From: Bradyrhizobium quebecense
GTDB lineage: Bacteria; Pseudomonadota; Alphaproteobacteria; Rhizobiales; Xanthobacteraceae
Reading direction: 5' to 3'
Assembly (NCBI RefSeq): GCF_013373795.3
Contig: NZ_CP088022.1
Span: 7,316,001-7,380,000, forward strand
Length of the DNA: 64,000 bases
Shown here: positions 30,545-42,696 of the stretch, one piece after another
Layout: each line of letters opens with the position of its first letter
Numbering within the stretch: position 1 is the stretch's first letter
Program-made: the position numbers and the translations under genes
Notes under the pieces: model-generated
Databases searched by the model: none
What the model was told of the DNA's origin: nothing
Seen by the model: only the letters and a program-made list of their open reading frames with translations

Positions 30545-30634
30545 GGAGAGATGGCCGAGTGGCTTAAGGCGCACGCTTGGAAAGCGTGTGTGCGGGAAAC
30601 CGTACCGTGGGTTCGAATCCCACTCTCTCCGCCA
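30545..30634 (+). tRNA. tRNA-Ser (anticodon GGA)
   Basis: A 90-base class II tRNA. The acceptor arms GGAGAGA and TCTCTCC pair perfectly, the discriminator is G, and CCA is encoded. The anticodon stem-loop is ACGCT-TGGAAA-GCGT with anticodon GGA, and the long variable arm follows. The T arm reads GTGGGTTCGAATCCCAC. It marks the left edge of the accessory island; its 3' end is a typical integration target. Confidence 0.97.
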
Positions 30635-31242
30635 CTTTGCCCCGAAATTTCGTACTTCTAACGGAGACAGGCTCGAAAACTCGGCCGTTTTCGTGAAATT
30701 TTCTGCCCTGGAGAATGCCGGCCGTACTACAAACGATCGCCGAATGGGGCTGGAGAACGCGTTTTTCTCCGAATCCTAGAACGTCGGGAATCGGTACAGT
30801 ACGGCATTTCGGCGAAAAACAAGGTCCTCATGGCGGCCGGTTTTGAATCTCTCTCGCTCAACCGATGGCAACGAGTTCTTCCTATTCGAACGACGGGCTC
30901 TGAATTGCGGGTTCGATCGGCCCCTGCGTGTAGCACCGCGGTGCGCTTGCGCTGGTTCAAGCGAAGCTGATCAGTCCAAAGGCGCACACGCACTTCCCCT
31001 AGGCAAGGCATGTGGCGTTACTGGCAAATGACGTACAATCACGCGCAGAATCAAGGACAAGACCTTCGGTTTGGTCAATCTCCGCCGCCTACATTTCCGA
31101 AGGCTGGGCGGGCCGTAGGTTTTTCGTTATAGACAGCATCGCTCCAGGCGATACACCTTCAGCGCGTTGGAGGGTGATGGGCTGCGTTCACTTGTCGCCG
31201 CATCGATTACGTTATTCGCACCACTCCAAGAGCGGACAAACC
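30635..31242. other. Island left junction, no supported gene
   Basis: About 600 bases between the tRNA and the KAP ATPase. Open frames here are short and lack coding character. An upstream in-frame ATG at 31177 with GGAGGG immediately before it could extend the ATPase gene. No integrase remnant is recognised. Confidence 0.5.
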
Positions 31243-33063
31243 GTGCCAACCGAGAGCAACAAGCAGGTATGGGACTACCTAACCTACTACATCGACCTCG
31301 CCCATGCTCCAGGATTTGCGGTGTTGGTTTCGGGGCGATGGGGCGTCGGAAAAACGTATCTTCTGAAAGACTTTCTGAAGGTGACGTTCGATGAAGATGC
31401 CGCCAACTATGTCTATGTGAGCCTCTATGGGCTTTCGAGCATCGAGGAGATCGATGACGCGCTGTTTCAGGCCGCATTTCCCGTGATGACCGGAACGGCC
31501 GCAAAGGTTGCTGGCCGGATTGCCAAAGCGGGTCTGAAGTTTCTCAAGGTCGAGCCGGGTGACTGGAACATCAAGGAATTCCTGAACAAGTTCAGGGCGA
31601 AGGTTTATGTCTTCGATGACCTTGAGCGGTGTGAGGCGCCGATCAACAAGGTGCTCGGATACATCAACCAATTTGTCGAACACGGCGGCGCGAAAGTCAT
31701 CATTCTTGCGAACGAGCAAGAAATCGGCGCCGACGAGGATTATGCCCGGCGCCGGGAAAAGCTCATTGGAAAGACCCTACAAGTCAGGTCGGTCTTCGAC
31801 GAAGCGTTTAAGCATTTCGTCTCGAACATTGACCATGCGGGAGCGCGCGGATTCATCGAAGTGGCGGCCAGTGACATCGCGACCATCTATGGCCAGGCCG
31901 ATCTTGATAACTTGCGTATCTTGCAGCAGACGATGTGGGATTTTGAGCGCTTCTTCGCGGCGCTTTTGCCGGAGCACACGGCTAACAAGGAGGCCGTGAC
32001 GACGCTTTTGCGGCTCCTTTTTGTGTTGTCCTTTGAATTCAAGGGGGCGCGCGCCTCCGAAGAGGACATCCTCACGGGCCGCGGCATGACGGCGGCGATC
32101 ATGGACCAGTTTGATAAGGAAGCGCCACGGAGGCCGCTTGCCGTTGCGGGTGAGCGGTATCCGATGGTTGATATCGACGACAACGTGCTCTCCAATGAGC
32201 TTCTCGTAGATTACCTTGTCCGAGGCGTCGTTGACGCAGACGCCATTCGCGAGGAGCTGAACGCGAGCCGGTTTTTCGTAAGCGTTGCCAATGAACCGGC
32301 CTGGCGCACCGTGTGGCACTGGTATGAGCGTTCGGATGCAGAATTTGACGCCGCTCTCGCTAAGATGGAGACGCAATTCAAGCAGCGTGCCTTCACGATC
32401 GACGGCGAGATACTCCACGTTTGTGGCCTTCGGCTTTTCCTTGCCGACAAGGGAATATTGAAACTATCGAAAGCGGACGTCGTTGCGGAATGCAAGCAAT
32501 ACGTTGATGATCTTTATGCAGCGAAGAAATTGGAGACGGGCGCCGCCGACGATCCCCGCGAGATAAGATTTCAGGGATGGGGCGGTCTTGGTATTTGTGA
32601 GAGTGACACGGCGGAATACAAAGCGATCTTCAAGCATCTGATTTCAACGATACAGCAGTCGGTCGTGGACAGTTACCCTGATCGGGCAAAACAGCTTCTA
32701 TCACTCATGATATCCGAGGTAGATGCCTTCTATCGGCAGGTCTCGCTGAGCCATGCGGACGCGAGTAAATACGTTCGTTCTCCCGTCCTTGCCAAAATGC
32801 CGGTTGATGATTTCGTAAATGCTTATCTTGCTCTTCACCCCAGCGAACAGCGCGTCGTCATGATGGCGCTCAAAGGTCGTTACGAGTACGGTCGGCTGGA
32901 TCAGCAGTTGAAAGAGGAAAAGCCGTGGATCGTTGCGGTGCATGCCGCCTTGACTAAGCGCTTGCAGGAGCTGAGCCCCATTTCGCAGCGACGTGTCGGA
33001 ATGCATCTTGAATGGTACGATGAGATCGTCAAAACGAGCAAAGAACTAGCGACGCCCGCTTAG
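31243..33063 (+). CDS. KAP-type P-loop NTPase
   Basis: A protein of about 606 residues. Walker A is SGRWGVGKTYL (about residues 30-40) and Walker B is KVYVFDDLERC (about 120-130); the DDLER form is characteristic of the KAP branch of STAND-like NTPases. The rest is a long helical region without membrane segments, unlike KAP members that carry inserted membrane helices. KAP ATPases occur in many phage-defence and conflict loci as the switch component. GTG 31243 (MPTESNKQVWDYL) is preferred because conserved sequence starts there; ATG 31177 is possible. Its 3' end overlaps the convergent nuclease-like frame. Role in defence is inferred from family and island context. Confidence 0.8.
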   Translation: MPTESNKQVWDYLTYYIDLAHAPGFAVLVSGRWGVGKTYLLKDFLKVTFDEDAANYVYVSLYGLSSIEEIDDALFQAAFPVMTGTAAKVAGRIAKAGLKFLKVEPGDWNIKEFLNKFRAKVYVFDDLERCEAPINKVLGYINQFVEHGGAKVIILANEQEIGADEDYARRREKLIGKTLQVRSVFDEAFKHFVSNIDHAGARGFIEVAASDIATIYGQADLDNLRILQQTMWDFERFFAALLPEHTANKEAVTTLLRLLFVLSFEFKGARASEEDILTGRGMTAAIMDQFDKEAPRRPLAVAGERYPMVDIDDNVLSNELLVDYLVRGVVDADAIREELNASRFFVSVANEPAWRTVWHWYERSDAEFDAALAKMETQFKQRAFTIDGEILHVCGLRLFLADKGILKLSKADVVAECKQYVDDLYAAKKLETGAADDPREIRFQGWGGLGICESDTAEYKAIFKHLISTIQQSVVDSYPDRAKQLLSLMISEVDAFYRQVSLSHADASKYVRSPVLAKMPVDDFVNAYLALHPSEQRVVMMALKGRYEYGRLDQQLKEEKPWIVAVHAALTKRLQELSPISQRRVGMHLEWYDEIVKTSKELATPA

Positions 33064-34453
33064 CGACCCTTGGACGGAGTGGTCTGCTGCCCGCCGTAGA
33101 CATGCCGTCAGCGAGCCTTAGGAGACGAGGCTGTGGACCGAAGTTTCTGCGCCACCGGGGCGCGCACGGCAATGGGGGTGCTCCTGATGCAGGCCAGCAG
33201 ACCGGCTGAAAAACGCAGGCCTTGCAGCACAGATAGGTTTCAAACGCTTCAATAAGGCATTTTTCTGCGCGTAAATCGTGTATGTCGATATGGGCGCAGT
33301 GGTGAGTTGATCCCGATACAAAATAGGACTTAGGGTCGACACTGGAATTCAAGACCGCCGGCGCGAGGACTTGCTTACCCGTGGCATGGCATGTCATCCA
33401 ATCATGTCCGGGGCAGTGTGGAAACTCAGAGTCGGCCAAAATAAAGTGCGTATGCTCGCCGGTGACGATCACGAATTCGCCTGGGCGCTCGTCAACCGTC
33501 TTTACATATGAGGGTCTGTCCGGTGCGTCTTTTGGCGCAAGTGAGCTAAGCGATCCACGAATGACGATCGGAGGGAAGCCTCGAAATGCCGACAGCGGCG
33601 AAACGCTTCGCTGCTGTCCCAGGCACGACAGGATGTCGTCGCGCAGCCGTTCGCTGCACGATTGCACTTCGTCGCGATGCTCGGGCAACTCCCCCACTTT
33701 GGTTGGTACAACGCTATGACCGAGGCTCCCTTCAGCGAACACCAAGAGCTTCGCATCGGACCGTTCGATTACGAAGGCGGGATAGAGCAGGATGCGGGGG
33801 AACGTATCCAACAACGTTGGAGAACCCGACGACTCCCAACGAACCAAGAGGGCGTGAAACATGTGCCGGATTGTCTTGGCCGGAGCATAGGTCGTGATCT
33901 GAGACGGTCGCAGCGGAAAAGGTATGTGGTCCGAAAGCTGAGAATGAGAGAGCTGGCCGTAGATCTGATCCGACTGCGCGACGTAGTTGTCGATTTCGAA
34001 GACGAGAATATTGCGGGAATTAACGTCGGCGGCGGTGATGAAGGCGTCGGCCGGGTCGGTGAAGATAACGAGCCACTGGCCTGACGATATGGCGACCTTG
34101 CCGACGAGCGCGCCACTTTGTTTCTTTAAGGTCTGGACGTAGTCGACGAGCTTCTGCAGCCATTCGGTCCACTCGGCCAGGATCGGCGCGTTCTCCGGGC
34201 GTTTGGCTTTTATGCAGCCAAGGGATTTTGCGATGAGTTGTTCGGCCGGCACCCCGCCGTCGCGGGCATTCTTGGCGCGCGGGGGCGGCTTTTCCCAAGC
34301 TTTAGCCTCAAACAACAGATGCGGTGTGCGCTGCTCGAGATGAACGCCGAGATAGTCAAGGAACAGCGTATTCTCGGCTTGAAGACGCGCTTCTTCGGCG
34401 ATTGCGTGTGTTTCGGCATGGAATAAGGACCCCCGTTTCGGGGTGATCGGCAT
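33029..34453 (-). CDS. PD-(D/E)XK nuclease-like protein with C-terminal Cys/His cluster, 5' end replaced by IS21
   Basis: The readable frame has 474 residues. Near the N-terminus FLDYLGVHLEQ (D33) and HLLFEAKAW (E49, K51) match the D...ExK core of restriction-type nucleases. The C-terminal part has a metal-binding-like cluster: FPHCPGHDWMTCH, HHCAHIDIH, EKCLIEAF and CCKACVFQPVC. The first 15 codons lie inside the IS21 end, so the original start and the upstream helix carrying further active-site residues are missing. The last 50 residues look unconserved and overlap the KAP gene end. It may be dead or expressed from an IS promoter. Function as a DNA-targeting effector is inferred. Confidence 0.6.
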   Translation of the reverse strand: MPITPKRGSLFHAETHAIAEEARLQAENTLFLDYLGVHLEQRTPHLLFEAKAWEKPPPRAKNARDGGVPAEQLIAKSLGCIKAKRPENAPILAEWTEWLQKLVDYVQTLKKQSGALVGKVAISSGQWLVIFTDPADAFITAADVNSRNILVFEIDNYVAQSDQIYGQLSHSQLSDHIPFPLRPSQITTYAPAKTIRHMFHALLVRWESSGSPTLLDTFPRILLYPAFVIERSDAKLLVFAEGSLGHSVVPTKVGELPEHRDEVQSCSERLRDDILSCLGQQRSVSPLSAFRGFPPIVIRGSLSSLAPKDAPDRPSYVKTVDERPGEFVIVTGEHTHFILADSEFPHCPGHDWMTCHATGKQVLAPAVLNSSVDPKSYFVSGSTHHCAHIDIHDLRAEKCLIEAFETYLCCKACVFQPVCWPASGAPPLPCAPRWRRNFGPQPRLLRLADGMSTAGSRPLRPRVAKRASLVLCSF

Positions 34454-34500
34454 CCAATCGGGACCCCGGGATAAGGGTCCACAGTGGCTTCCATCGAGTC

Positions 34501-36018
34501 ATGGAAGCCGAGGTTGGGATGCTGGTGGTGGAGACGATTGGTAAGATCCGTCGCGCCTACTTTGTTGATGGTCGTCCGATCAAGGCGATCTGCCGAGAAC
34601 TTGGCGTATCGCGGAAGGTGGTTCGCAAGGTCATTCGTTCTCAAGCGACGGAGTTCCGGTACGAGCGCGAGACGCAGCCGCTCCCGAAGATGGGTGCCTG
34701 GAGTGCCGAGCTTGATCGGTTGCTGGCAGGGAATGAGAGCAAGGCGGCGCGGGAACGGCTGACGCTGATCCGGCTATTCGAGGAACTCCGCGGCCTGGGT
34801 TATGCCGGCGGCTATGATGCGGTTCGTCGATACGCCCGACGGTGGACCAAGGAACGCGGCACCTCGACAGCGTCGGCTTATGTGCCGCTGAGCTTTGCAC
34901 CAGGCGAAGCCTACCAGTTCGACTGGAGCCACGAGGTGGTCCTGCTGAGCGGCACCACGGTGATGGTGAAGGCTGCTCATGTTCGGCTCTGTCACAGTCG
35001 CATGCTGTTCGTGCGGGCCTATCCGCGGGAGACGCAGGAGATGGTGTTCGACGCCCACGACCGGGCATTCGCCCTGTTCAAAGGCACCTGCACCCGCGGC
35101 ATCTACGACAACATGAAGACCGCGGTGGAGACGATCTTTGTCGGTAAAGGCCGTCTCTACAATCGCCGCTTCCTGCAGATGTGCAGCCACTATCTGGTCG
35201 ATCCGGTCGCCTGTACGCCAGCGTCGGGCTGGGAGAAGGGGCAGGTCGAGAACCAGGTCGGGCTGGTCCGGGAGCGCTTCTTCACGCCGCGGCTGCGGTT
35301 CAAAAACCTCGACGAGTTAAACGCCTGGCTGCTCGACAAGTGCATCGCCTACGCCAAGGCTCATCGCCATCCGGAGCTGGTCGATCAGACGATCTGGGAC
35401 GTGTTCGAAGCCGAACGCCCCAAACTCGTTCCCTATGCCGGCCGCTTCGACGGCTTCCATGCGGTGACAGCATCGGTCTCGAAGACCTGCCTGGTGCGCT
35501 TCGACAACAACAAGTACTCGGTCGCAGCCAGTGCAGTCGGACGACCGGTCGAGGTTCAAGCCTATGCCGATCGCATCGTGATCCGTCAGGATGGACGTAT
35601 CGTTGCCGAGCACCCGCGATCCTTTGGCCGCGGCGATACCGTCTACGACCCCTGGCATTATGTGCCGGTGCTCGCCCGCAAACCCGGCGCCTTGCGCAAC
35701 GGTGCTCCCTTCAAAGACTGGGTGCTGCCGGCCGCGATCGAGCGGATCCGGCGCAAGCTGGCCAGCACCGACGATGGCAATCGGCAGATGGTCGACATCC
35801 TCACCGCGGTGCTGACTGACGGTCTGTCCGCGGTGGAAGCGGCTTGTGCCGAAGCGCTCAGTCACAGCGTCCATTCCGCCGATGTCGTTCTCAATATCCT
35901 GGCCCGTCAACGTGAACCCGCCCCACCGGCCAACATCATGACGCCGGCCGCACTGACGCTCCGTCATGCACCGATCGCCGATTGTGCCCGCTACGACAAC
36001 CTCCGGAGGACCATCTGA
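34501..36018 (+). CDS. istA: IS21 transposase IstA
   Basis: A 505-residue DDE transposase. The N-terminal helix-turn-helix ([22 protein letters not shown]) precedes the integrase core with [24 protein letters not shown] and [12 protein letters not shown], which contain the expected Asp-Asp-Glu. An alternative start at 34519 ([15 protein letters not shown]) removes six residues. The TGA overlaps the istB ATG. Confidence 0.95.
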
Positions 36019-36881
36019 TGGAACGAACCCAAATCTTCGACCTCATGGGCGAACTTAAGCTCTACGGCATGAAGGCTGCCTTCGACGAGATCATGGCAAC
36101 TGCCGTCAAGCGCCAGCACGAGCCTCAACGCATTGTCGGCGACCTGCTCAACGCCGAGATCAACGAGAAGCAAGCCAGGTCGATCAAATACCAGCTCACC
36201 ATTGCCAAGCTGCCGCTCGCCAAGGACATCGCCGACTTCCAGTTCGACGGCACGCCGATCAATCAGACTCTCGTCAATGATCTCGCTGGCGGCGGCTTCA
36301 TCGCCCAACAACGCAACGTCGTGCTGGTTGGCGGCACCGGTACAGGCAAAACCCACCTGGCCATTGCCATCGCCAGAAGTTGCATCCGCGATGGCGCCAG
36401 AGGACGCTTCTACAACGTAGTCGACCTCGTCAACCGGCTCGAGACCGAGACCCGCAACGGTCGGCAGGGACGGCTCGCCGAGCATCTGACCCGCATGGAC
36501 TTCATCGTTCTCGACGAGCTGGGCTATCTGCCGTTCGCGCAATCCGGCGGTCAGCTCCTGTTCCATCTCATCAGCCGGCTCTACGAGCGCACCTCCATCA
36601 TTGTCACCACCAATCTTGCGTTCGGCGAATGGCCCAGTGTGTTCGGTGATGCCAAAATGACCACCGCGCTACTCGACCGATTGACCCATCACTGCGACAT
36701 CGTCGAGACCGGCAACGACAGCTGGCGATTCAAAAGCCGCGACGATGTTCAAACAACCCGCGCTCGCGCCGTCTCCGCAACCCCGACCAGCTCCGACGAC
36801 CCGAGCGCTACCAGCAGAGCACGCCGATCAAAGGGGTCCCTTTTGGATGCCGATAGGGGGTCCCAGTCGAACGCCGATTGA
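36018..36881 (+). CDS. istB: IS21 transposition ATPase IstB
   Basis: An AAA+ helper ATPase of 287 residues for target selection by IstA. Walker A is [11 protein letters not shown], Walker B is [12 protein letters not shown], and the IstB signature [30 protein letters not shown] is complete. GGAGGA at 36005-36010 serves ATG 36018. The last 40 residues run into the IS end and are low-complexity, so the frame extends further than usual family members. Confidence 0.94.
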
Positions 36882-36883
36882 CA

Positions 36884-37247
36884 CTTTGGCCGGAGAACAA
36901 AAAGCTGGAGTCCCTTTGGGTTCCGAACCACGCACTTCATCGTAAGCCGGCAAATCAACCGTCGCCACGCTGTCTTTTCGCGACAGGTCCCGCTCGGACT
37001 TCCCCTCAAGCTGAACCGGGATGAACGCCGGGCGTGAGGACGGCGGCAGCGACCTGGTCGCGCTGTGCTTCTTGATCCACTTCCGAAGGAGGTTCGCGTT
37101 GACCCCATGTTCGAGTGCAAGCCTCGATACCGAAACCCCAGGCTCAAGGCAGGCCGCGACAAGACGCTCTTTCGATGCCGCCTCGTAGCGCCGGCGACCG
37201 TTCCGGCCGACAAGCCTGACCCGCAGTTTCTGATCATCGTCGCTCAT
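36884..37247 (-). pseudogene. IS66-type TnpA fragment, cut by IS21
   Basis: From ATG 37247 the frame reads a typical small helix-turn-helix orfA: RRRYEAASKERLVAACLEPG then VSVSRLALEHGVNANLLRKW and a FIPVQL segment. After about residue 120 it enters the IS21 end, so the C-terminus and the rest of the element (tnpB, tnpC) are missing. Only this 5' remnant is left. Confidence 0.75.
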
Positions 37248-37251
37248 CACA

Positions 37252-37279
37252 AGGTGTCCACCTATTTTGGTGGACACCT
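37252..37279. repeat. Perfect 11-bp-stem hairpin at the IS66 remnant/sensor junction
   Basis: AGGTGTCCACC, loop TATTTT, then GGTGGACACCT. It lies upstream of the orfA remnant start and just before the PAS/GAF gene. It may mark the end of the old insertion element or act as an operator for its transposase. Confidence 0.6.
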
Positions 37280-37336
37280 CATGCATCAGGACTCTCAAAA
37301 GCAAAAGGTGCGGAGAAATTCGCGCTTACAGCTGAA

Positions 37337-39793
37337 GTGCGGCGGGCCATTGCTGAACGACCGCGTCAGCTTTACGATCTTGACCTCGAAGTGTCGAGTG
37401 GAGCAGTGCCGGTCCTGGCCGAATTTGGCGAAGTCGAGAGCGGTGCCAAGGGCAGCGGCTATGCTCTTTTGGTAGACATGTCCAATATCGTGGATGCGGA
37501 GCACAAAGCTCTTGAGGCCGCTCCCTTTGGAATGCTTAAGCTCGACGCACATTTGCGCATTCTCTTCGCCACGCAAAAGGCGGTGAACCTTCTTGGGTTG
37601 ACGCGCGAGGAACTGATTGGCCGAAGCGCTCGCGAATTCCTTGCCGACAAGAAAAGCCGAGAAACAGTCCGACGGCAGAGTGTCCAGCGTCAACGTGGTG
37701 TTGGCGGCGATTTCAACATCAATATCAGAACGCGAACTGATCAGGTAATTGAGCTTCGCGTAACGAGCACACCCAGCTTTGATCAGAGTGGTGCATTTTC
37801 TGGATCAATCTTGCAAGTCCAGCCGATCGGGTTCGATCTCGCTAGGAAGCAACTTGGCACGCTGATCGCGACCGTCTCGGACCACAATGACATCTACGAC
37901 GGGATCCTAAAGGTCCTGAGAAACTTTATCGAGTTCGATTGGGCGAATCTGTTCATTTATTCGCCGAAGCGCGACTATTCGCGCATCATCCTGACACGTG
38001 GCGAACCGATCGATTTCGTCTCGCGTTGGTTCACAACGCCGAACGGTTATGTCGACTGGCTCAAACAGCCAGTCACCTGGATGGACGACTTGGAGGAGCA
38101 GATGTCGACGACCGCGCCCGAGTATCTTGAGCGCGTTGATACCCAAGCAGCCATCAGGGCAGGAATGAAGGCATTGGTCTGCCTGCCTATTCGGTCGGGT
38201 AAGCGAATCATTGGGGGCTTCTGCTTGGCGTCGAAGAGCAAGCAGACCTACAACGCCGCTTCGCGGGGTATTTTGGAGGACCTCAATCTCGAACAAGCGC
38301 TACTGCCTTTGTTCGGCATCGTTGAAGGTCTGGAACGTGAATTTGTCAGCGAGCTAGTCCAGGATATCGCCCGTCTAGAAGACATGCAACTCGTTGCTGA
38401 GCGCGTGGTGCGAGGCCTAGCAGAGTTCTACAAGTATGAGAATGTATCGATCTTCAAAATCAACGCGTTGCGCGGGCAAATCCAGCTATTGGCGCAAGCG
38501 GTCGGAAAGCACGGTGGCACGCCGATGCCGAGCGGGCACTCGCAATCGGTGGATGAGGGCGTTCTCGGCCTTTGCCTTCGTCGTAGAAATTGCGTGATCC
38601 TGAAGGACAAAGACGACGGGAGCAAAGAAGCGCAGGCCTTTCTCCAAGTAGCAAAGGAAACGCGGTCCGAATTGTGCATCCCGATAAGGTTATTCGGTCG
38701 TATCTTATGGATTTTGAATTTTGAAGATGGCCTAGCTGACACGTTCTCGCCAGTCGAGATCGGTAAGCTTCAGAGCCTCATCCAGCAAATGCAAGCGACC
38801 CTAGAGCGGGTCTTCCAAGGCCTCATTCTCGTCAAGCTCCTCGACGTATGCCCGGCGGCGATAATCGTCACCGATCAGAAGTTTCGTATTGTTCGTTCGA
38901 ATCGGCTAGCGCAGCTCCTAATGCAGAAGGCTTCTCCCTCTCTTGATGATAATCTCCAGGAGTTCCTCGATGTGTCGCCCGCGGCGCTCACCGGTGAGCC
39001 GGTCGCGGTGAAGCTCTTTGGCAAGCAGGGCAGGAAGACTGAGGTCTTCGCCTCGAAGCATACGTTGGAGGAAGAGTACGATCACGCAGTTTTCATGCTG
39101 CAGAATATCGCGGACATGGAGTGGACAGCCAAGGTCGAAACGTTGCGAGCCGCGTTGGCCGAGACGACCGCACAGGTACGTGTACCAGTATCGCTCGTTT
39201 CAAGCTACGTTCACCTGATCGACCAGGAAGCGCGTGATGACCGATTGCGCGATTTGGCTAAGAAGGCGGCGCGCCAGCTCGGACGCATCGAATTGACCTA
39301 CGATCGCGTGCTCGCGGCGTATGAGACGCAAGCTCTCCCCGCGAAGCGGGCTGTAACGGTCGATATAAAGGAAGCATTGCGGTTCATCCTCGACGAACTG
39401 CCGAAGCGAGAGTATGACGCGGTCAGTGTGATGCACGGCTCGTCCTCCTTGTCCGTCTTCGCTGACCCCTATCGCGTGTTTTTCGCGCTGAGTTCTATGC
39501 TGTCTTATCTGCTGCGCTCTCGAGCCGGCACGGAGCCCATCGAAATATCGACGGCAACCCGAGGTGGTGTAGTCACGATCTCGATGGCCGCCGTGGTACC
39601 CAAAGCGATCGAGACGCACGAACTGGCGGCGGTGATCGAGGCAACCCGAGCTGAGATTGCGCTCGGAGAGAACCTCTTGGACCGGATCGCCAGGGAGATG
39701 AGTGGTGATTTCAAGCTTCAGCGCGAGAAGAAGGGGCGCGAGCGTCTAACCTTGCGGCTCAAGGCGCCGGCTGTGATGAGGAGACGATCATGA
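37337..39793 (+). CDS. PAS-GAF-GAF-PAS sensor with degenerate histidine-kinase core (pseudo-kinase), possibly 5'-truncated
   Basis: An 818-residue cytoplasmic protein. A PAS domain (about 55-165; EAAPFGMLKLDAHLRILFA), a GAF domain (about 175-325), a second GAF (about 335-490; DEGVLGLCLRRRNCVILKD) and another PAS (about 500-590; DVCPAAIIVTDQKFRIV) precede a dimerisation-helix-like stretch (about 600-660). There AQVRVPVSLVSSYVHLI replaces the HELRTPL pattern, so the phospho-accepting His is absent. The ATPase-like end (about 690-815; VFADPYRVFFALSSMLSYLL) lacks the N-box Asn. It cannot be a normal kinase and more likely senses and relays by contact. It overlaps the CHAT gene by four bases. Coding character continues upstream of GTG 37337 (AEKFALTAE), so the N-terminus may have been cut by the IS66 element. 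Confidence 0.8.
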   Translation: MRRAIAERPRQLYDLDLEVSSGAVPVLAEFGEVESGAKGSGYALLVDMSNIVDAEHKALEAAPFGMLKLDAHLRILFATQKAVNLLGLTREELIGRSAREFLADKKSRETVRRQSVQRQRGVGGDFNINIRTRTDQVIELRVTSTPSFDQSGAFSGSILQVQPIGFDLARKQLGTLIATVSDHNDIYDGILKVLRNFIEFDWANLFIYSPKRDYSRIILTRGEPIDFVSRWFTTPNGYVDWLKQPVTWMDDLEEQMSTTAPEYLERVDTQAAIRAGMKALVCLPIRSGKRIIGGFCLASKSKQTYNAASRGILEDLNLEQALLPLFGIVEGLEREFVSELVQDIARLEDMQLVAERVVRGLAEFYKYENVSIFKINALRGQIQLLAQAVGKHGGTPMPSGHSQSVDEGVLGLCLRRRNCVILKDKDDGSKEAQAFLQVAKETRSELCIPIRLFGRILWILNFEDGLADTFSPVEIGKLQSLIQQMQATLERVFQGLILVKLLDVCPAAIIVTDQKFRIVRSNRLAQLLMQKASPSLDDNLQEFLDVSPAALTGEPVAVKLFGKQGRKTEVFASKHTLEEEYDHAVFMLQNIADMEWTAKVETLRAALAETTAQVRVPVSLVSSYVHLIDQEARDDRLRDLAKKAARQLGRIELTYDRVLAAYETQALPAKRAVTVDIKEALRFILDELPKREYDAVSVMHGSSSLSVFADPYRVFFALSSMLSYLLRSRAGTEPIEISTATRGGVVTISMAAVVPKAIETHELAAVIEATRAEIALGENLLDRIAREMSGDFKLQREKKGRERLTLRLKAPAVMRRRS

Positions 39794-41562
39794 ATATCGT
39801 TGTCGCGAGCGGCGATGCCGGTCAATTGGAACTGCTGGAAAGCGGCGCGACGCTGGTCGGTCAGCAGATGCGACCGCGGGTCCCGGTAACTATACGGTCC
39901 GTGGCGTCAATGCAGGATGCCCGAAAAAGGATCGATCGGGAGACCGCGTTGCTCGTCATTGCATCTTCCTGGACCGGTACTGTCGAAACGGATCCTGGGC
40001 TCGACCTGATCAAGTCACTCGCGTCAAAGCCGTCGTCGCCCGCCTGTATCTTGGTTGGCCGCCTCGAGCTTCTGCTGTCGGTTCAGCCGATCAAGCGATG
40101 CGAACTTCTCGTCGTCGACTGTACGACAGATTACGTTCGGCAGTGCGTTATTCTCGCGCGACGGCTCGACGTCATTCAGGACGAGTCCCGCGAAGTGCGC
40201 TTCGAGGATGATGCATTTCGAACAACGCACAGCGCGATCGCTGAGACCTCGGGACCAAGGAAGGAGCCTAGCTTTGCGATATTGGAAGTCGATTTGCGAC
40301 GCGACATCATTTACAGCCGGGTGCATCTCAACATTCACAAGCCGACCGGCGTACTTCGTCGAGAGCCTGAGCCTCTGGTGCTGAAGGAAGATGAACTCGT
40401 CGAATTCATAAGGGATAGCAAGAACCTCAAAAAGAACTTGGCCAAATGGCACCAGAATGCCAGCAGAAGGGGGCACTACACAAAATGGCATGCCGAATAT
40501 CGTCAGCTCGGCGAGCGCGTGAGTCGGATGCTTTGGGGTAGCAGGGCGTTCAACAGATACTATGATTTTGCTCAGGAAGCGACGCGCGACAAGGATGTTG
40601 CGCCGCAGGGGCACGTCAGATTGCGCTTCAACCTGGAACAGCCGTGGTTTGACGGTCTTTGGGAGGCGATCGCCGACGAGCAGGACGGCCGACACTTGAT
40701 ACTCGATAATACCGTCGCACGTAGATATCTGTTGCCAAATAAGATCGACGCCTTTGGCAGTCGCGACGGACAGATTGAGACGGACGACGGCAATCTCAAC
40801 GTACTTGTTCTGCGATCGCACGTGCCGGCGGGTTCCGTGCCGGACGGACCGAATGATGGGCTGTGGAGAAAGTATTGGAAGAGCTATAATGGGGTCTTGC
40901 CCGCGCTTCCTCATCTGGACCAGGAAGTTGACGAGATCCGGAAACTTGAAAAGTCGAAGCAGAAAAACGAGAGCAGAGCGACAATCAAGATCAATGTTAC
41001 GGTACTCCCCAAAAAGGACGCTGCGGCGGGCGAGGCCTGGTCGTTGGTGGATGAACTCAAGGAGCATCTGACGAATGGAAGTAGACGCTATGATGTGGTC
41101 CATTTTGCCGGACACGCCCTGTTTGCCGATGGTATCGATGGAGACGAAAGGGGTTATCTAATCTTTTCAGGCTTCCCGAACCCACGAGCAGTACCGATCG
41201 CAGCCGTCGCTCCGTTGCTCAAGGAAGCGAATGTCCAACTTGTCTATCTCAGCTGCTGCCGCAGTAGCGCATCTGCTGCAGCTCTAGAATTCTCGCGCAA
41301 CGATATCCCGATGACGATCGGATTTCATTGGGACCTTGATGACAGCAAGGCCCCCGTATTTGCGAAGGAATTCTACAGGGAATTGCTGGAGAATGACCTC
41401 AGAGTGTGCCGTGCCACGAGCAAGGCGCGAAAGTCGCTGTTTGTTGAGCACGACAAGGGGGATCCGATTTGGGCATCGCCCGTTCTGATTGCGCAGCCCA
41501 TGGATTGGCTGCAGGTCGAGGGTGTACTTAAGCTTTCGGCCCATCGTTCCCAGGTAGCCTGA
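39790..41562 (+). CDS. CHAT-domain (caspase-like) peptidase with receiver-like N-terminus
   Basis: A 590-residue protein without signal peptide. The C-terminal CHAT domain (about 270-575) has the catalytic pair: H442 in VVHFAGHALF and C490 in VQLVYLSCCRSS, with the expected preceding FNLEQPWFDGLWEAIAD segment. The N-terminus (about 1-130; MNIVVASGDA, LLVIASSWTG, ACILVGRLELLL) alternates strands and helices like a receiver but lacks the phospho-Asp pattern. The gene overlaps the pseudo-kinase gene (ATGA), so the two are made together. Bacterial CHAT peptidases are known effectors or activators in defence, for example the TPR-CHAT partner of gRAMP and those paired with gasdermins. The target here is unknown. 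Confidence 0.88.
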   Translation: MNIVVASGDAGQLELLESGATLVGQQMRPRVPVTIRSVASMQDARKRIDRETALLVIASSWTGTVETDPGLDLIKSLASKPSSPACILVGRLELLLSVQPIKRCELLVVDCTTDYVRQCVILARRLDVIQDESREVRFEDDAFRTTHSAIAETSGPRKEPSFAILEVDLRRDIIYSRVHLNIHKPTGVLRREPEPLVLKEDELVEFIRDSKNLKKNLAKWHQNASRRGHYTKWHAEYRQLGERVSRMLWGSRAFNRYYDFAQEATRDKDVAPQGHVRLRFNLEQPWFDGLWEAIADEQDGRHLILDNTVARRYLLPNKIDAFGSRDGQIETDDGNLNVLVLRSHVPAGSVPDGPNDGLWRKYWKSYNGVLPALPHLDQEVDEIRKLEKSKQKNESRATIKINVTVLPKKDAAAGEAWSLVDELKEHLTNGSRRYDVVHFAGHALFADGIDGDERGYLIFSGFPNPRAVPIAAVAPLLKEANVQLVYLSCCRSSASAAALEFSRNDIPMTIGFHWDLDDSKAPVFAKEFYRELLENDLRVCRATSKARKSLFVEHDKGDPIWASPVLIAQPMDWLQVEGVLKLSAHRSQVA

Positions 41563-41589: not shown

Positions 41590-42696
41590 TCAGTCCGCCA
41601 GCGTAACGACATGCTCATGCATTCCCGGCTTCAGGATTGTGAGCGTATAGCCGGATGTTGTGGGATCGAACTTGTCGACAAGCAGTCGTGTGCTCTTGGT
41701 TTCGTTGGTGACCACCAGAGTGATCGGCTCTTGGCGGTCTCTTGCAGCCGACACGATCCACTGTAGCGTTTCGAGGTCCGGATTGTCGTACTTTCCGTTG
41801 GCCGAAATCACATAGGTATCCGCGGTAATTGCGCGGAAAAACTTCTCGTCCACGTTGCGGCTGCTTCCATGATGTTGGACTTTCAGTACGTTGACGTGAA
41901 TTGTGCCCTTCTGCGCGAGGCCGGCTTTAGTTAGGCCCGCTAAAATATGATCACCACGCGCGTCGCCAGTAAGCAAAACCGTTTTTTTGTTGCACGTCGC
42001 CAGGAGGACGACGCTGCTAAGATTTGGAACACTGCGGTCCATCATGGCGGCGGTGCTTGGCTGCGTCGCTACTCGCCGCGAGGTCTCCGCAAGCCATTCC
42101 AACCATTTCTTACGAAGTGCCCTAAGGTTGGCTTGACTGGGCCCCGCGATCCTCAAGCTTAGCGGTCCGAAGAGGATGGGCTCCAACGCGGTGTCGACCA
42201 TGATGAGGTCGTTCTTGAAGCCCCTGTTCCGCTCGATCTTGAGTTTTTGCGCGGCCAGTCGCAGGCGGTTGCCCTCGCGGACTCCAAGAAAGGCGTCTGT
42301 GGCGAGTGGCATCGCGAAGTTCGCGGCGCTGGCCATGCTCATGATTGCCTGCAATTGTTGCGTGATCGCGCCGTCTGGATCGAGTGTCTTTTCAAACGAA
42401 TTGTGCCAAAGTTGGTCGATCCGAAGACGCGCTTGACGGTCACTAACCTGATCGTATTCGAGATCAGCCAGCAAATCCAGAACGCCCACAATGTGATCAT
42501 TGTCGATATGGCTCATTACAAGCAGATCGAGCTTGCCGCCGATGCCAACAATGTGCTCGAGCGCGGCGCGCAAGTCGGCTTCGTAATTGCCCGGCGGTCC
42601 TCCGTCGATCAGGATATAGCGAGGTTTGCCGGCGCTGCCAAACTCAAGAAGGAGGCTATCACCGAATTGCGCTTGAATGACATGGAGTTTGAACAT
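41590..42696 (-). CDS. ComEC/Rec2-like MBL-fold hydrolase
   Basis: A 368-residue stand-alone metallo-beta-lactamase domain of the ComEC-type. The metal motif is SHIDNDH (H63, D65, D67, H68), with TGDARGDHI later, and VQHHGSSRNVD near the C-terminus; all are typical. Unlike ComEC it has no membrane helices. It starts nine bases after the subtilisin stop, forming a two-gene operon. Related MBL proteins are found beside proteases in predicted prokaryotic conflict modules and may act on nucleic acid or a nucleotide signal; that is inference. Confidence 0.85.
   Translation of the reverse strand: MFKLHVIQAQFGDSLLLEFGSAGKPRYILIDGGPPGNYEADLRAALEHIVGIGGKLDLLVMSHIDNDHIVGVLDLLADLEYDQVSDRQARLRIDQLWHNSFEKTLDPDGAITQQLQAIMSMASAANFAMPLATDAFLGVREGNRLRLAAQKLKIERNRGFKNDLIMVDTALEPILFGPLSLRIAGPSQANLRALRKKWLEWLAETSRRVATQPSTAAMMDRSVPNLSSVVLLATCNKKTVLLTGDARGDHILAGLTKAGLAQKGTIHVNVLKVQHHGSSRNVDEKFFRAITADTYVISANGKYDNPDLETLQWIVSAARDRQEPITLVVTNETKSTRLLVDKFDPTTSGYTLTILKPGMHEHVVTLAD

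Follow-up and report, generated by a model that had tools for sequence, protein, structure and literature searches.

A truncated pseudo-histidine-kinase sensor paired with a receiver-CHAT protease in Bradyrhizobium quebecense: a possible four-gene protease relay, damaged in this genome

We analyzed a 64,000-nucleotide stretch of the Bradyrhizobium quebecense genome (contig NZ_CP088022.1, positions 7,316,001 to 7,380,000; hereafter the window) that carries an open reading frame (ORF) for an 818 aa multidomain sensor at 37337–39793, followed on the same strand by an ORF for a 590 aa peptidase at 39790–41562. The two share an ATGA at 39790–39793, the four-base overlap from which the original prediction had read them as a coupled pair. 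Two further genes, encoding a metallo-beta-lactamase-fold (MBL) hydrolase and a stand-alone S8 subtilase, run convergent to the sensor-CHAT pair and are not in the same operon. The pair is bordered on its left by insertion sequences and two candidate defence genes (Table 1).

Table 1. Genes, domains and mobile elements at the locus, numbered from the first letter of the window.
Feature	Position	Strand	Remarks
tRNA-Ser	30545–30634	+	Left edge of the gene stretch
KAP P-loop NTPase, PDC-S49 candidate defence protein	31012–33063	+	Pfam, PADLOC
PDC-M54B candidate defence protein	33029–34453	-	PADLOC 1.1e-138; profile matched only from position 67
IS21-type element inside the IS66-type copy	34425–36881	+	Left end approximate; inverted arms 34446–34467/36833–36854
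End piece of IS66-type element	36882–37329	-	HTH_Tnp_1 protein; cuts the sensor gene
Pseudo-histidine-kinase sensor	37330–39793	+	5'-truncated by the IS66-type element; frame open from the junction
PAS domain of sensor	37508–37828	+	Residues 58–164
GAF-1 of sensor	37823–38350	+	Residues 163–338
GAF-2 of sensor	38381–38791	+	Residues 349–485
DHp-like two-helix region of sensor	39107–39322	+	Phospho-His column is Ala612; AF2 helices, ZraS/KinB profile match
Degenerate CA (HATPase-like) domain of sensor	39353–39763	+	Presumed N-box Asn positions are Ser720/Tyr724
Receiver-CHAT protease, 590 aa	39790–41562	+	4-bp overlap with sensor; PF12770
Receiver-fold domain of CHAT protein	39790–40182	+	Residues 1–131; lacks phospho-Asp, Ala58 here
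Separase/CHAT-type caspase-like region	40267–41532	+	Residues 160–581; His442 at 41113–41115, Cys490 at 41257–41259
MBL-fold hydrolase, LmuA/Avs1a-like predicted pro-nuclease	41590–42696	-	PADLOC LmuA 4.4e-55, Avs1a 5.1e-37
S8 subtilase, 774 aa	42706–45030	-	PF00082 5.3e-51 at 288–627; ~285 aa before the catalytic domain

Pfam (E≤1) identified a PAS domain and two GAF stretches in the sensor, in line with its description as a PAS/GAF protein, and no HisKA or HATPase_c match. The ORF is not the whole gene: full-length relatives measure ~967 aa and, in an alignment read by eye, carry an additional PAS-like region N-terminal to the two PAS domains first described. In the DHp-CA region, the AF2 model of the sensor (pLDDT of 54–90 by block there) shows helices at 591–631 and 635–662, at pLDDT 54–75, followed by an alpha/beta domain. 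Phytochromes head the Foldseek list for this model, and the PAS/GAF tandem resembles phytochrome and fRMsr-type sensors. The 50 matches listed in the structure alignment were all of GAF/PAS type; we attach no weight to the lack of histidine kinases among them and used a sequence profile for the DHp-CA region instead. A profile built from 13 loci identified this region as a relative of histidine kinases (ZraS, 2e-10; Sporulation kinase B, 3.9e-9), and against the PDB it matched 31 sequences at E≤10, all of them histidine kinases, sensor proteins, RetS or DivL by name. The maximal 19-residue hydropathy, 1.96, falls in a helix-strand stretch and other values are below 1.4, giving no clear membrane segment by this measure.

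The DHp-CA profile aligned the family motif A/Q-Q-x-R-x-P-L over H-E-I-R-N-P-L of ZraS, and this alignment was used to place the phospho-His column. Across 90 sensors (the window's own copy, 74 relatives and 15 loci), the column held Ala in 45, Ser in 21, Arg in 7, Gly in 5, Gln in 4, Thr in 2, Asn in 1 and Cys in 1, with 4 gaps; none of the 86 rows with letters had His. The two columns that we take to be those of the N-box, from the usual form of the motif, held Ser (84), Thr (1) or Val (1) and Tyr (78), His (4), Ser (3) or Arg (1), with 4 gaps each and no Asn. A smaller alignment of 83 sensors gave the same result at all of these columns. One sensor has a His one column past the phospho-His position and, in the 83-row alignment, three have one at column 615, while scaffold positions near the site are kept (Arg615 in 78/83 and Pro617 in 77/83 sensors). 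The loss of both the phospho-His and the N-box Asn, predicted for this copy, thus extends to every aligned homologue with a letter there, and by these alignments the sensor is a pseudo-kinase throughout the family, a histidine-kinase scaffold lacking the phosphotransfer residues.

The peptidase matched CHAT in Pfam (PF12770, E 2.3e-15) with its dyad, H442 and C490, intact as originally read. Its C-terminal part has a separase/CHAT fold, and its N-terminus, thought from the start to be receiver-like, has a receiver fold. The pair therefore has the folds of a canonical two-component system, DHp-CA and receiver, but not the phospho-His, the N-box Asn or the receiver phospho-Asp (Ala58 here). Neither protein matched any of 5027 PADLOC models at E≤0.1.

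We considered whether phosphate might still enter this pathway, with another kinase phosphorylating the CHAT receiver and the pseudo-kinase serving only as a scaffold. An Asp is present at the acceptor column in 12 of 90 CHAT proteins (11 of 101 in a fuller tally), in six others it sits one or two columns further along, and the CHAT proteins of two relatives (L006 and L008) have weak PF00072 matches. Another donor might phosphorylate those CHAT receivers that retain the Asp; the large majority, the window's included, lack it, and we regard such a disguised phosphorelay as quite improbable for the family. The first tally, of 83 sensors and 90 CHAT proteins, omitted 26 of 102 CHAT hits (the window's own copy, all six fusions to trypsin, six full-length proteins and 13 fragments). 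The fuller one covered each of the other 101 CHAT hits, together with the other 74 family sensors and the loci. Weak sensor matches of a different architecture (P0178–P0184) were excluded from all tallies.

Among the CHAT relatives, six are fused to a V8-like trypsin (P0071, P0081, P0083, P0087, P0100 and P0102), and in three of these (P0083, P0087 and P0102) Tyr replaces the His442 of CHAT; of the two column tallies, only the fuller one contains these rows. These three look as if the trypsin had taken over from CHAT. One further relative, P0011, has Arg at the Cys490 position.

The window copy of the sensor gene is damaged. Homology to relatives extends past the GTG at 37337 without a change of frame, upstream to ~37330, and the GTG corresponds to an internal Val codon of the sensor family. 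Directly upstream lies the end of an element that we take to be of IS66 type. This 448-bp piece is present at 11 places in the genome, its own included, with 10 copies on the main contig and one on contig 3 and a reported identity of 100%, and the element has probably been active recently. The three other copies compared stay identical up to precisely 37329 in one direction and 36882 in the other; at the latter point an IS21-type element has entered the window copy, and the two ORFs of this element, read by eye, are presumably istA and istB. This second element has apparently cut the 5' end of the PDC-M54B gene. The PDC-M54B and PDC-S49 candidate defence genes (31012–34453) sit between the tRNA-Ser and the insertion sequences. 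No repeat of the tRNA-Ser end was reported and no clean insertion site is demonstrable; in three relatives that share the flank on the IclR side, similarity to the window does not resume on the far side, where a tRNA-Arg lies.

The simplest history would have the IS66-type element enter the sensor gene and the IS21-type element enter the first, followed by a deletion that took ~150 codons from the start of the sensor gene, together with the shared upstream region and with the 5' end of the PDC-M54B gene. On this account the locus is a decaying remnant with the rest carried along, which we think quite likely. The exact IS66-type boundary and the loss of 5' ends from both flanking genes favor it, as does the failure to find the N-terminal sensor piece elsewhere in the genome, in a search run without a positive control. 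Against it, 818 sensor codons and the CHAT, MBL and S8 genes still read through without interruption and the catalytic residues are kept, which points either to a recent event or to a persisting rump function. A remnant explains the state of this copy rather than the nature of the system, and is compatible with a four-gene relay. The observation first made at the locus is confirmed, with the correction that the sensor is truncated by the IS66-type element, and the interpretation offered with it is supported in part. The finding is stronger than first described as a family and weaker as a locus.

The sensor was present in all six contig loci with a CHAT match above 300 bits and in none of 74 others, whose CHAT matches reached at most 80 bits and of which 18 are under 8 kb and 23 are 8–15 kb. 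This count drew on 80 of 99 tblastn-positive contig loci, and most of the six (L003–L008) are also rows of the profiles used. In Bradyrhizobium, at least 13 of 265 genomes match the sensor profile, and an adjacent CHAT gene was found by profile in 10 of the 13 (both counts include the window's own genome). Of the remaining three, one (L111) has a shortened CHAT-like ORF and two encode ~1,800 aa proteins (L106:5342–10789 and L107:4952–10360) in which two receiver stretches are combined with GAFs, an acylphosphatase and a sub-threshold match to caspase C14. The GAF-GAF cassette of the window sensor recurs in these large proteins (37% identity over 329 aa and 31% over 323 aa), which may be single-chain versions of the same logic. 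In addition, the sensor and CHAT genes overlap by 4 bp in three annotated plasmid records (L117–L119).

The sensor family is rare, present in at least 2 of 385 genomes of a class sample, own included, and at least 2 of 297 in another count; these figures, like the Bradyrhizobium one, are lower bounds because only two or three candidates were scored per genome. Some relatives are on conjugative or mobilizable plasmids. A phage or plasmid origin was considered and rejected: viral contigs yielded one weak CHAT match, and a plasmid collection yielded three CHATs (E≤1e-5) and two sensors (E≤1e-20).

We then considered the two convergent neighbors. The MBL protein also matches RTasMBL in PADLOC, and the residues that we presume to bind metal (H63, D65, D67, H68, D245 and H276) are intact, with 97–100% conservation at the six positions across 119 aligned rows. 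The presumed triad of the subtilase (D297, H332 and S565) is likewise intact and is invariant in five aligned sequences, own included. One MBL relative, P0214 (251 aa), is 99% identical to the window protein and diverges past residue 238 as if frameshifted. The order of sensor and CHAT followed by convergent MBL and S8 genes is identical in the window, Mesorhizobium WSM3860 (L003) and Rhodopseudomonas rhenobacensis (L004), three genera in all, among which the MBL proteins are 55–62% and the subtilases ~61% identical, both more conserved than the sensor and CHAT proteins. As indirect evidence of linkage, 22 of 120 listed MBL relatives are on contigs of exactly the same size as that of a CHAT or sensor relative, where 0.76 were expected; one of these contigs (2468 b) could not hold both genes, and the count is better taken as 21. 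The same measure places 33 of the 75 family sensors (own included) on contigs that match a CHAT relative's in size (~0.27 expected).

The four genes might instead be two independent modules, a sensor-CHAT pair with its own target and an MBL-S8 nuclease-protease pair that travels in the same islands. The convergent orientation and the higher conservation of MBL and S8 would fit such an arrangement. Most of the 2121 MBL relatives (E≤0.001) lack demonstrated nearness to a sensor-CHAT pair, and phmmer detected no CHAT, sensor or MBL in the flanks examined around the S8 relatives of two genomes (G203 and G330) and of an Azospirillum plasmid. Moreover, the distant pairs (L005–L008, L100–L105 and L108–L110) have other neighbors, with no MBL or S8 in the flanks examined (phmmer, E≤1e-4). 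However, separate modules would leave unaccounted for the identical gene order in three genera, the excess of shared contig sizes and the recurrence of proteases as partners of the pair elsewhere, and we consider them somewhat unlikely.

The partners of distant pairs vary. Beside the pair lie an LCAT-like hydrolase and a TCAD7-CHAT protein in B. murdochi (L005), a weakly lysozyme-like protein and a 1120 aa CHAT protein in L006 (with ORFs of similar size in L008), and, upstream, a 1243 aa DUF7379/DUF7363/CHAT protein in L007. A family of 416–451 aa proteins is encoded downstream of the pair in L101, L103, L108–L110, Rhizobium TH2 and, by eye, L111 (e.g., L101:6492–7742(-), L108:4900–6183(-), L110:4806–6161(-) and L118:10054–11337); its members had no Pfam match above the cut-off (L101, L108, L110 and L111) and no PADLOC match (L101 and L108). 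An Azospirillum relative has a pentapeptide protein and a TIR gene nearby. On S. meliloti pCpl, the pair lies among genes for a trypsin-NucA protein, an alpha/beta-hydrolase-like ORF recognized by eye, an S8, an EAD1-trypsin protein and one more protein that matches EAD1 below threshold. This set resembles System 3 of Kaur et al. (2020), described as trypsin with NucA, S8 and EAD1, mostly from alphaproteobacteria (PMC7159879), with the sensor-CHAT pair added. That source reports no histidine kinase domains among the vWA-associated effectors, and a term search of it does not return 'CHAT' (PMC7159879). Neither NucA nor trypsin, the System 3 core, was found by Pfam in the nine window proteins scanned. 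In relatives the sensor-CHAT switch would instead drive EAD1-trypsin and NucA, a lipase-like hydrolase with a second CHAT, or the 416–451 aa family.

A regulatory device outside defence, in which redox or metabolic signals lead CHAT to clip a regulator without killing the cell, would suit a sensor that resembles phytochrome and fRMsr-type proteins and has no clear membrane segment. We judge it improbable, as the patchy, rare distribution, the conjugative or mobilizable plasmids, the PDC-S49 and PDC-M54B neighbors and the effector-like partners (NucA, TIR and the LmuA-like MBL) fit conflict systems better.

Several known systems share parts with this one. Detocs comprises three genes, one of them for a further receiver protein, with a receiver-bearing effector, classically a PNP, and phosphotransfer from a functional histidine kinase to receivers. 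Both it, a defensive two-component system (PMC11249213), and the present pair have two-component parts and a receiver-bearing effector, but here there is no phospho-His and a protease takes the effector role; membership in Detocs was rejected because the phosphotransfer residues are gone across the sensor family. The combination of PAS/GAF domains with a kinase scaffold recalls plant phytochromes, DivL and RetS, the latter two being among the PDB profile matches. All three are atypical or pseudo-kinases, and we know of no caspase-like response regulator for any of them. The CHAT/separase fold is in common with the TPR-CHAT protease of Craspase (Csx29, bound to a Cas7-11 effector) and the SAVED-CHAT protein of type III CRISPR systems, which are activated by an RNA effector or cA3, whereas here the partner is a pseudo-kinase and the N-terminus a receiver. 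SAVED-CHAT provides immunity via a proteolysis cascade (PMC11229360).

The closest parallels for the MBL-S8 pair are MBL pro-nucleases that are opened by partner proteases in Hachiman and Avs, with a caspase version in canu, according to Tuck et al. (2025; PMC12799240). The MBL-protease pairs of Hachiman (HamM), Avs1, Lamassu and DRT described there involve the same MBL profile families (LmuA, Avs1a and RTasMBL) with an adjoining protease gene, moved between unrelated sensing modules. In those systems the protease is a trypsin fused to a defence enzyme (PMC12799240), whereas here it is a free-standing S8; sensing here falls to a pseudo-kinase and a receiver-CHAT protein, and the gating loops and cut sites of the MBL are only putative. 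Canu (CanABC) likewise links a caspase-superfamily protease, a caspase with an Ig-like fold, to an MBL nuclease (PMC12799240), but the protease here is CHAT/separase-like with a receiver, the gene order differs, and the subtilase and pseudo-kinase are additions of the present locus.

The explanation that we favor, at a little short of an even chance in our estimate, is that the four genes form a protease-relay system that is damaged in this genome. Beyond the anatomy, we infer each step. The PAS/GAF tandem would bind a cytosolic signal of infection or damage, which would shift the DHp helices. The CHAT protein, its receiver docked there like a response regulator on its kinase, would have this domain released or aligned without phosphate, and the CHAT protease would thereby be freed or dimerized. 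CHAT might then cut either the pro-nuclease or the subtilase, which has a long N-terminal region and may be a zymogen. Removal of the loops gating the MBL would free a nuclease to destroy DNA, with cell death or arrest as the outcome.

The relay is favored by the shared convergent order in the window, L003 and L004, by the excess of shared contig sizes, by the linkage of sensor and CHAT gene in the six close loci and in 10 of 13 Bradyrhizobium genomes, by the loss of kinase residues while protease residues are kept, and by the presence of receiver and separase/CHAT folds together with a kinase scaffold. It also accords with the pCpl pair among protease genes, the existence of CHAT-trypsin fusions, the GAF-GAF cassette in receiver-GAF-caspase proteins and the precedent of MBL pro-nucleases activated by partner proteases (PMC12799240). 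Standing against it are the Tyr at His442 in three of the six trypsin-fused CHATs and the Arg at Cys490 in P0011, the convergence of MBL and S8 and their presence elsewhere, and the distant pairs with neither gene in the flanks examined. The low confidence of the modelled DHp helices, the Asp kept in some CHAT receivers, the indirect nature of the contig-size matches, the rarity of the family and the truncation of the window copy weigh on the same side.

A broader proposal, which we hold more loosely than the relay itself and regard as possible but doubtful, is that this is a two-component pathway without phosphate. Contact between sensor and regulator would fire a caspase-like initiator protease, setting off a death cascade from subtilase to gated nuclease, and in many bacteria the pair would serve as a general switch for different proteolytic effectors, akin to an initiator-caspase platform assembled from two-component parts. 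No paper on a pair of a pseudo-histidine kinase with a CHAT or caspase protein was found among the matches listed in open-licence PMC and, as far as that collection shows, the four genes of this soil bacterium look like a self-destruct or antivirus circuit without a published name.

How bacterial pseudo-receivers are switched remains a mystery, according to PMC12632262. If our reading is right, the family would offer a natural test of kinase-receiver docking as signaling without phosphate, the point at which work on pseudo-receivers is stuck. The MBL nuclease-protease effectors known from Avs, Lamassu and Hachiman would also gain a sensing front end of a new type and a further class of protease, and the family would represent caspase-like initiator logic built from two-component domains.
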